From Fimbriimonadia bacterium (GTDB lineage Bacteria > Armatimonadota > Fimbriimonadia > Fimbriimonadales > Fimbriimonadaceae), in NCBI GenBank assembly GCA_030427425.1, contig JAUICQ010000001.1:110665-174664 (forward strand): 64,000 bases of DNA. The letters run 5' to 3'. Made by a program: the position numbers and the translations under genes. How positions within the stretch are numbered: position 1 is the first letter of the stretch; each line of letters begins with the position of its first letter. This document shows positions 27,574-29,829 of this stretch, one piece after another. The notes below the pieces were generated by a model. The model had not been told where the DNA came from. It was given only the letters and a program-made list of their open reading frames with translations, and searched no databases.

Positions 27574-29829
27574 ATGTATTTTCCGAATTCTTATGAAGAA
27601 TATATGATAGATCCGTCTAGAAGAAGGCCGAAGTCGTCTAATTTGCTTGGGATGTTAATGCCAGAAAACGCAGGAAATATTCTAGATATTGGCCTAGGAA
27701 ACGGTGAAGATTTATATCATTGGAAATATAGAACCGAGAACAATATCGAGATATGGGGATTAGATTTAAAAGAGAAAGAGAATAAATTAAACCTAGATAG
27801 CTTGTATAAACAAGGAGTGATAGATATCCAGGGTAATATAGATATCGAATTGCCAGACAATTATTTTGACTGTATTGCGGTTAAGAATACTCTCGAGTAT
27901 TTACAGGATCCTATTAGTTTTTTAAATGTAATATCAAAAAAGCTTAAAACTGGAGGAGTTCTTTTGTTGAGTTATGCGAATTTTAGCAACGTAGTATCTC
28001 TTTCTAAGTTGTTATCTGGATACATGGATAGAGGATATGCTATTGATGATAATAGTGAATTATTTGTTAGGAATAGACTTAGCCCACTGCACATCAGTAA
28101 TTTATTAGCAGAGATTGGTTTTCAAATTGGCACTCATTATCCAGAACACATTTTCTCTAGCTCTAAATATTATAAGTTTTTCTCTTGGCTAGAGAAGGTA
28201 GGGTTGAAGAATTTCAATAATATATCCATTAGTTCTTTTAATTTATCATATATAAAAGTTAGTTCATGTACTGGAACTGCACAGACTTTGGTTTCAAATC
28301 AGATATCTGATGAAAAAATGTACCAGGATTTGAGTGCATTGCTTCAAAAGAAGAATATACAATCGAATGACAGAGTGCTAGTAATTGTAAATAAAGAATT
28401 TTATGAAGAAAATGTTAAATTTGATAACAGTGTTGTTAAAATTATTTCAGCAGATAAGTTGATACAGAATAGCACTGTTGCCAATTCACAAGAATATAAT
28501 CATATTATTGCCTACCATGCTATAGATAAAGTAATTAATCCAAGCTATGTACTAAACATAATTAGATCCATGCTTACAGATAATGGAGAATTAACTGTTA
28601 TCAATATGAATGCTAGTTATTGGAAACGAGTTTTAAAGTTTGCTTTTATCAATGAAATACCAGTAAATAAATTTTCTCATAATGAACTAAACTCTATGTT
28701 GTTTACTAAATATTCTTTAAAGCGAATTTTAAAGAATTCTGGGTTCGATAACATCAATTATACAGAAGAGGCTAATCTACCAGCTGATAGTAAAAATATT
28801 ATAAAAGACATAGGAAACTTATTTGATATCCATAAACAGGAAAACAGTGCACTCTTAAGCAATTTATCGGAAGAAAATATTATTGTATCTTGCAATAAAA
28901 ACACTGCCCAAATTAAAAATCATAATCTGACTCCATTATCCTTACTTTATTTTTCTAGAGAAGAGAATGATTTAAATATTAACAAATTTATTAATCAGCT
29001 TCCAGTAAATTCGGATATAACATTAGTGGTTAATGATAATGAATCCTGTCTTTCAGCAGCCGATCTGCTTTCTAAGCAATTTAGGATTAAGATTCTTCAT
29101 GTTAAAGATAATAACATGAAAGAAATTATGGAAGAATTTTTAAATTTTTCTTCACATAATTATTTTCTTATCCTAAATTCAAATGTTAGTTTTAATGAAT
29201 CGGTATTGGTTAACACTTACGGATTAGCTTATAAAAGCAATATAGATGTGATGCTTCCAATTAGTAGTTATGAACTAGAGTACAATAAAGACTTTTACAT
29301 GCCTAAATGGATTGATGGTAGCTGGAGTATCGATAGGTTAGATGAACTATTTAGTAGTTTATATAGCAATAATCTATACCATTATAACGGGTTAGGTTCT
29401 GATAATTTCTTAGTAAGAAGAGATGTCTTCCAAAATGCACTATTAGAAATTAATTCATTATCATCTACGTTGTGGTCTTTGGAGTTGTTTGATGTTTTTA
29501 GACGTCAAGAAAGAAATATTATTCAAAACACTGGCTCTATATTAGATGTTAAGAATTTCAGTAGAATTAATATTCATTCTAAACTTAATGATAGAAAATC
29601 TTTTATTGATAATTCAAAAGAAGTGTATGATAAATTTGCTGCATTATACGCACCTCGGGATATAGTACAACTAATAGGATGCCCAGAGTCTGATATTCTA
29701 TATAATATTAAGGATCATTGGGAGCAGATGCTAAAAAATCAGTTGACAGAAGATGCTAATAAAGAATTAAATTTAAGTGTTCCCGGCAGGTCTTCGATTA
29801 TCAGTGATGTTATTTCAGTGCGGGGTTAA
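27574..29829 (+). CDS. Fused SAM methyltransferase / glycosyltransferase-like protein
   Basis: 751 residues from ATG 27574 (the reading from TTG 27544 adds ten residues with no ribosome site). Domain 1 (about 30-210) is a class I methyltransferase with LDIGLGNGE at 37-45 and FDCIAVKNTLEYLQDP. Domain 2 (about 245-420) is a second, degenerate methyltransferase-like fold (YNHIIAYHAIDKVINPSYVL, then GELTVINMNASYWKR) with no glycine loop. Domain 3 (about 440-660) has the alternating pattern and acidic segment of a GT-A glycosyltransferase (DITLVVNDNESCLSAAD, NYFLILNSNVSFNES) with the usual DxD replaced by NSN. The two degenerate domains may bind rather than catalyse. It lies within the polysaccharide region and probably modifies a glycan. 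Confidence 0.75.
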   Translation: MYFPNSYEEYMIDPSRRRPKSSNLLGMLMPENAGNILDIGLGNGEDLYHWKYRTENNIEIWGLDLKEKENKLNLDSLYKQGVIDIQGNIDIELPDNYFDCIAVKNTLEYLQDPISFLNVISKKLKTGGVLLLSYANFSNVVSLSKLLSGYMDRGYAIDDNSELFVRNRLSPLHISNLLAEIGFQIGTHYPEHIFSSSKYYKFFSWLEKVGLKNFNNISISSFNLSYIKVSSCTGTAQTLVSNQISDEKMYQDLSALLQKKNIQSNDRVLVIVNKEFYEENVKFDNSVVKIISADKLIQNSTVANSQEYNHIIAYHAIDKVINPSYVLNIIRSMLTDNGELTVINMNASYWKRVLKFAFINEIPVNKFSHNELNSMLFTKYSLKRILKNSGFDNINYTEEANLPADSKNIIKDIGNLFDIHKQENSALLSNLSEENIIVSCNKNTAQIKNHNLTPLSLLYFSREENDLNINKFINQLPVNSDITLVVNDNESCLSAADLLSKQFRIKILHVKDNNMKEIMEEFLNFSSHNYFLILNSNVSFNESVLVNTYGLAYKSNIDVMLPISSYELEYNKDFYMPKWIDGSWSIDRLDELFSSLYSNNLYHYNGLGSDNFLVRRDVFQNALLEINSLSSTLWSLELFDVFRRQERNIIQNTGSILDVKNFSRINIHSKLNDRKSFIDNSKEVYDKFAALYAPRDIVQLIGCPESDILYNIKDHWEQMLKNQLTEDANKELNLSVPGRSSIISDVISVRG

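Follow-up and report, generated by a model that had tools for sequence, protein, structure and literature searches.

A protein combining two methyltransferase-type domains with an altered GT2-type domain in two species of one Fimbriimonadaceae genus

The stretch of 64,000 nucleotides analysed here (the window) belongs to a 1.5-Mb assembly (G000) that consists of 19 contigs and is 97.65% complete. Genomes in the other genera of the same family range from 1.7 to 6.5 Mb. The window contains a gene for a protein with three transferase-type domains, referred to below as D1, D2, and D3, and two glycosyltransferase genes that follow it (Table 1). Its start codon is taken to be the ATG at position 27574; an alternative TTG at position 27544 is possible, but the former is preferred because the protein of the sister species (G001) begins at the equivalent position (MYFQNFYER, aligned with MYFPNSYEE in the window). 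In both species, this gene is the first of three side-by-side genes. The order of the other two is swapped: the double GT2 gene precedes the GT2_4-type gene in the window and follows it in the sister genome (locus L021), where the first two genes of the triplet overlap by 4 bases (L021 positions 13577 to 13580). Among the Pfam and NCBIfam models reported for the protein, none spans all three domains.

Table 1. Positions of the three-domain gene, its domains and altered motif, and the two genes downstream of it in the window
Feature	Position	Strand	Evidence or conservation
Three-domain gene (MT-MT'-GT2'), 751 aa	27574..29829	+	Intact ORF
D1, class I SAM methyltransferase, residues 1-244, including a C-terminal extension	27574..28305	+	Pfam, hhalign
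D2, methyltransferase-like, same subfamily, no glycine loop, residues 245-448	28306..28917	+	hhalign, shuffles, alignment
D3, GT2-type, altered motifs, residues 449-751	28918..29826	+	hhalign, shuffles, alignments, model and fold search
NSN in place of NPD, residues 535-537 (codons AAT TCA AAT)	29176..29184	+	Alignments
Double GT2 protein, 524 aa, canonical DADE and DAD motifs	29862..31436	+	64% identical in sister species
GT2_4-type protein, 317 aa, NPSEFF at expected DxDE	31510..32463	+	71% identical in sister species

The initial annotation of the gene had proposed a fusion of a methyltransferase with a clear SAM loop, a methyltransferase-like domain without this loop, and a glycosyltransferase-like domain, and profile comparisons bear out this domain order. 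D1 is a class I methyltransferase with an intact glycine loop (DIGLGNG); it scores 60.7 bits against the Methyltransf_23 domain (Pfam ID PF13489), well above the cutoff of 27 bits, and matches a methyltransferase profile (9 domains, 8 of them from fusions and 1 from a single-domain frame) with an hhalign probability of 99.4% and an E value of 5e-22. Searching the sequences of solved structures with D1 returned seven methyltransferases. In the sister protein, the SAM loop is gone, with VLEISKTNISS found where the window protein has ILDIGLGNGED; despite this loss, the sister protein still scores 36.4 bits against PF13489.

D2 has no glycine loop, and the segment from residue 244 to residue 457 scores 22.7 bits against PF13489, which is below the cutoff. 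It is nevertheless matched by the family-specific methyltransferase profile with a probability of 84% (E value of 7.6e-6) and a score of 42.5, which none of 100 column shuffles reached (maximum, 18.8), and it obtains next to no score with the GT2 profile. The search of solved-structure sequences with D2 returned nothing. In the alignment, an N-x-x-HW-like motif and the C-terminal extension are common to D1, D2, and the methyltransferase-GT2 fusions described below, which suggests, without proving it, that the methyltransferase unit was doubled within such a fusion.

For D3 on its own, there was no Pfam match up to an E value of 10, and the cutoff of PF00535 was not reached. In an hhalign comparison of a two-sequence D3 query with a profile built from 24 GT2 domains, including 9 from fusions, the probability was only 42% (10.6% in the global mode), with an E value of 2.6e-4. 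The score of 35.5 was not reached by any of 100 column shuffles, the highest of which scored 19.2, and D3 obtains next to no score with the methyltransferase profile. The wrong pairings, D2 with GT2 and D3 with methyltransferases, stayed within the range of their shuffles, 11 and 44 of 100 of which, respectively, scored as high. For D3 with the paralogues, the solved-structure sequences matched, with E values from 0.08 to 0.99, were those of two designed proteins and a GalNAc-transferase.

A structural model of D3, computed from an alignment that included 25 GT2 domains from viral contigs, had a pLDDT of 61 and a pTM of 0.64, with many core blocks at 70 to 93. Foldseek, with the same GT2 sequences behind the model, placed it among GT-A proteins, with the chondroitin polymerase K4CP as the best match (E value of 7.7e-10); TarP and RmlT were also among the GT-A proteins that the model matched. 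The VIA-align comparison gave a Z score of 16.1 for RmlT (rmsd of 5.2 over 246 aligned residues) and 15.8 for residues 293 to 520 of human LH3 (rmsd of 3.9 over 199 aligned residues), and many other proteins were matched as well. Because GT2 sequences were part of the modelling alignment, the fold match supports a GT-A fold but is no independent proof of it. With this qualification, the structure prediction and fold search, which had been proposed along with the initial annotation, are in line with a GT-A-like third domain. An AlphaFold model of the whole protein, based on the two orthologues alone, had a pLDDT of 33.8 and a pTM of 0.24 and was not used as evidence.

The initial annotation had also remarked on NSN in place of a DxD motif. 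The site was correctly identified, but in GT2 domains of this type the standard motif is NPD: the segment LILNSNVS of D3 aligns with ILLNPDTE in hhalign, the modelling alignment, and all five MAFFT modes. Local hhalign, global hhalign, the modelling alignment, and every MAFFT mode agree in showing NSN in the window species and SSN in the sister species at the NPD site; hmmalign put no D3 residues on the motif columns. The D/E-D pair is represented by WS in both species in the five MAFFT modes and global hhalign and by a gap, again in both species, in the modelling alignment; it is lost in 6 of the 7 alignments that placed D3. At the third site, VD, the sister protein has Q. The window protein has V there in hhalign and four of the five MAFFT modes and D in the fifth mode and the modelling alignment, so the aspartate may be kept in the window species. 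The number of acidic sites lost in D3 thus depends on the alignment; as judged from these sequence comparisons, the loss of NPD is firm and that of the D/E-D pair likely. Of the 24 GT2 domains of the profile, 20 retain NPD and 21 the D/E-D pair, while all 23 that were readable at the VD position have the aspartate there; the three domains without the D/E-D pair all come from the genus g28.

The window and sister proteins are only 28% identical (30.0% in D1, 23.5% in D2, and 29.2% in D3). Both are encoded by about 750 codons free of stops, have the same order of domains, and share the clusters PDNYFDC, ELE, PKW-G-W, and LWS-E-F. In phylogenetic trees, which carry flags for long branches and odd composition, each of the three domains groups with its sister counterpart with 99 to 100% support, so that the three-domain form is probably older than the split of the two species.

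A search with a profile built from the two full-length proteins found full-length matches in 2 of the 113 genomes of the order and 2 of the 291 genomes of the phylum Armatimonadota, in each case G000 and G001; the remaining matches listed in these searches covered the D1 region only. A non-exhaustive scan of contigs from 84,980 species, seeded by two short peptides, yielded 301 relatives; among the 80 that were kept, 1 was full-length (the sister protein) and 79 fell within residues 3 to 232. In these searches, the same order of domains, for which a database search had been suggested at the outset, was found in the window genome and its sister only. No relatives were confirmed in viral contigs (with the two-peptide seeds) or in plasmid and phage collections, which leaves a mobile origin of the gene unsupported; the two-domain fusion P0003 likewise gave no seed-pattern matches in viral contigs. 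A literature search on methyltransferase-glycosyltransferase fusions came back empty, and none of the papers retrieved on inactive glycosyltransferase domains dealt, by title and abstract, with the MT-MT'-GT2' architecture.

The initial annotation had described this architecture as unfamiliar, and no Pfam or NCBIfam model reported for the protein spans it, but the protein proved to be less isolated than that description implied. The family contains nine methyltransferase-GT2 fusions, namely, P0003 (529 aa, from G014; the same protein as L004 and L106) and eight others (L107 to L114, with roughly the first 60 residues missing from L107), and the genus itself has two-domain paralogues in G000 (L016; 561 aa) and G001 (L015; 572 aa). 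Like the target, the two-domain fusions and the paralogues have a GT2 domain preceded by a methyltransferase that belongs to the same subfamily and carries its C-terminal extension; unlike the target, they have a single methyltransferase. L106 to L111 retain all three GT2 motifs, whereas NPD is lost in the target. The paralogues have intact SAM loops, but their NPD site reads TSD in G000 and TEC in G001, and neither has the VD aspartate. They are 45.6% identical to each other, with 58.7% identity in the methyltransferase half versus 30.4% in the glycosyltransferase half, so the glycosyltransferase half changes faster in the two-domain paralogue too. The g28 proteins (L112 to L114) resemble the target in having two methyltransferases and one GT2 domain without NPD and the D/E-D pair. 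However, their order is methyltransferase-GT2-TylF, with the second methyltransferase being the C-terminal TylF domain, their GT2 domain is recognized by Pfam (E values of 5e-16 to 5e-22), and the VD aspartate is kept. The domain trees single out none of these fusions as the closest to the target.

Some multidomain proteins of glycan biosynthesis offer partial parallels. WsaE, which participates in S-layer glycan synthesis in Geobacillus stearothermophilus, also has three domains, with an N-terminal sugar O-methyltransferase preceding glycosyltransferase domains (PMC2943079), but it combines one methyltransferase with two active rhamnosyltransferases, whereas the target has two methyltransferase-type domains and one GT2-type domain and so does not belong to the WsaE type. 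WsaE and a Klebsiella O7 protein are chain-terminating methyltransferases joined to glycosyltransferases (PMC2943079, PMC11231755). The chlorovirus protein A064R, which assembles the terminal part of a viral glycan and methylates it, similarly carries a methyltransferase and glycosyltransferases as three domains of one chain, although in the order GT-GT-MT and with all three domains reported as active; its domain 1 has been likened to another glycosyltransferase family and its domain 2, which transfers rhamnose without a cation, has been called a new family (PMC9614988). By analogy, these proteins support a glycan-tailoring context for the ancestor of the target rather than any particular present function. 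As domain 2 of A064R illustrates, the loss of a motif does not in itself prove the loss of activity. Finally, the LH3 segment matched by the D3 model is, by the residues named in the paper, the central accessory (AC) domain of this multidomain human protein, which has a glycosyltransferase fold and has, according to its authors, possibly lost catalysis (PMC6082870). It comes from an unrelated protein context and is 12% identical to D3, a likeness of fold only, of a kind common to many GT-A proteins.

The GT2_4-type neighbour, found in 3 of the 85 genomes of the family, carries N-x-S/T-E-F at the DxDE site not only in the two species but also in a relative belonging to a different genus; in the G018 relative, the motif is NITEFF. 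In the window, the target also stands beside polysaccharide-export genes (SLBB and Wzz) and next to an AraC gene. The orthologue of the latter lies elsewhere in the sister genome, where a search for Wzz, run without a positive control, gave no match and no export-type frame was seen by eye within 33 kb around the triplet; the SLBB, Wzz, and AraC genes were consequently set aside as guides to function. Given the swapped neighbours and the displaced AraC gene, we infer a surface glycan from the glycosyltransferase neighbours alone.

In the interpretation that we favour and to which we give an even chance, the target is a lineage-specific, largely non-catalytic offshoot of the methyltransferase-GT2 fusions that partners the adjacent glycosyltransferases in recognition or assembly, although D1 may still be a methylating enzyme in the window species. 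Its ancestor would have been a fusion of two domains, a sugar-type SAM methyltransferase and a GT2 glycosyltransferase, whose methyltransferase unit was probably doubled in the ancestor of the genus to give D1 and D2. After that, D2 would have lost SAM binding and D3 its acidic catalytic residues, with D3 retaining its full length. Most likely, the protein would now assist the products of the two glycosyltransferase genes immediately downstream, as a subunit for recognition or assembly; D3, and perhaps D2 too, would hold the growing surface glycan, which D1 may still O-methylate in the window species. A working GT2 enzyme is expected to retain its acidic residues. The loss of the NPD aspartate in both species and of the SAM loop in the sister species, with the length, domain order, and neighbours all kept, favours a non-catalytic role in a complex, and the absence of the loop from the sister D1 makes methyl transfer by D1 unlikely as a function shared by the two species. 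The analysis shows directly the domain composition by profile, the replacement of NPD by NSN, the absent loops, the conservation of the gene triplet, and the relationship to methyltransferase-GT2 fusions; the doubling of the methyltransferase, the loss of catalysis, and the role as a helper are deduced from these.

It is possible, although we have our doubts, that D1 is the sole working part, the protein being a glycan O-methyltransferase in which D3 serves as a glycosyltransferase-derived recognition domain that aids sugar binding. For the window species, where D1 is intact, this overlaps with the interpretation given above, and the g28 proteins, with their altered GT2 domain between a methyltransferase and TylF, look as if such a GT2 served methyltransferases. 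Since the sister D1 has no SAM loop, this explanation can hardly hold for both species. It seems unlikely that the target is a working enzyme with methylation by D1 and sugar transfer by D3, the latter through an unusual, metal-independent mechanism that requires few or no aspartates. Each species has an unbroken reading frame, the SAM loop of the window D1 is normal, the VD-site aspartate of the window protein may remain, and cation-free transfer is known for domain 2 of A064R. However, the description of that domain as a new family makes the analogy with D3 a loose one, all alignments that placed D3 show the loss of NPD in the two species, all but one of them show the loss of the D/E-D pair, and the SAM loop is missing from the sister D1. 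A decaying, functionless gene in a shrunken genome, with fast change reflecting lost constraint, would fit the small assembly and the contrast between 28% identity for the target and 64 to 71% for its neighbours but is improbable, as both copies have retained an uninterrupted frame, the arrangement of domains, and the two glycosyltransferase genes beside them, along with conserved sequence clusters that would be unexpected in a dead gene.

A bolder version of the favoured, largely non-catalytic interpretation, which we put forward only tentatively, is that wholly non-catalytic transferase domains, such as the two pseudo-methyltransferases and the pseudo-GT2 of the sister protein, form a glycan-recognition scaffold in this small-genome lineage and that pairing altered partners with canonical glycosyltransferases is a habit of the lineage. 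In its favour, the neighbour at 31510-32463 and the tandem pair on contig C11 of G000 (see below) also lack motif aspartates. If the favoured interpretation is right, an ordinary glycan-tailoring fusion enzyme has been turned into a non-catalytic helper, and the two species represent different stages of this process, one of them retaining the SAM loop of D1 and the other having lost it. The case would then be a counterpart in bacteria of the accessory glycosyltransferase domain of LH3 and would call for caution before such proteins are labelled methyltransferases or glycosyltransferases.

Glycosyltransferases of other architectures are also found in these genomes. G000 has 14 GT2 matches, nine of them in frames of 638 to 748 aa, located at 58311-60476 of the window and on contigs C3, C4, C6, C7, and C8 (L136 to L141 and L143 to L145). 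In eight of these nine frames, GT2 is preceded by a match to the CgeB/GT4-like domain (Pfam ID PF13524), which is under the cutoff in two of the eight and was confirmed in the window frame; in six larger relatives, the PF13524 matches are mostly found in shorter frames. Tandem pairs of double glycosyltransferases are encoded at L184:6495-9605 (G000, contig C11) and L185:8435-11556 (G001, contig C3). One member of the pair has canonical DADE and DTD motifs, and its partner has DSNE and NSN in G000 and DSHE and DSD in G001; the D-to-N change in the G000 partner resembles the one in D3. Near these paired glycosyltransferases, both species encode proteins with signal-like N termini that we take to be leucine-rich-repeat-like (L184:4290-6377; L185:3750-4751 and 7055-8050) and that perhaps point to a host-associated life. 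The two-domain paralogue on contig C19 of G001 has in its vicinity a frame that, in our estimation, resembles flagellar FliD (L025:9927-12392) as well as a small protein with LDQVSGG near its end that may be akin to a leader-type peptide precursor (L025:734-1141). Elsewhere in the window, there is a chemotaxis receptor with a protoglobin sensor domain (16323-17888), and a ribosomal protein L10 leader RNA is predicted at 47767-47919, with a score of 44.2 bits against a threshold of 44.
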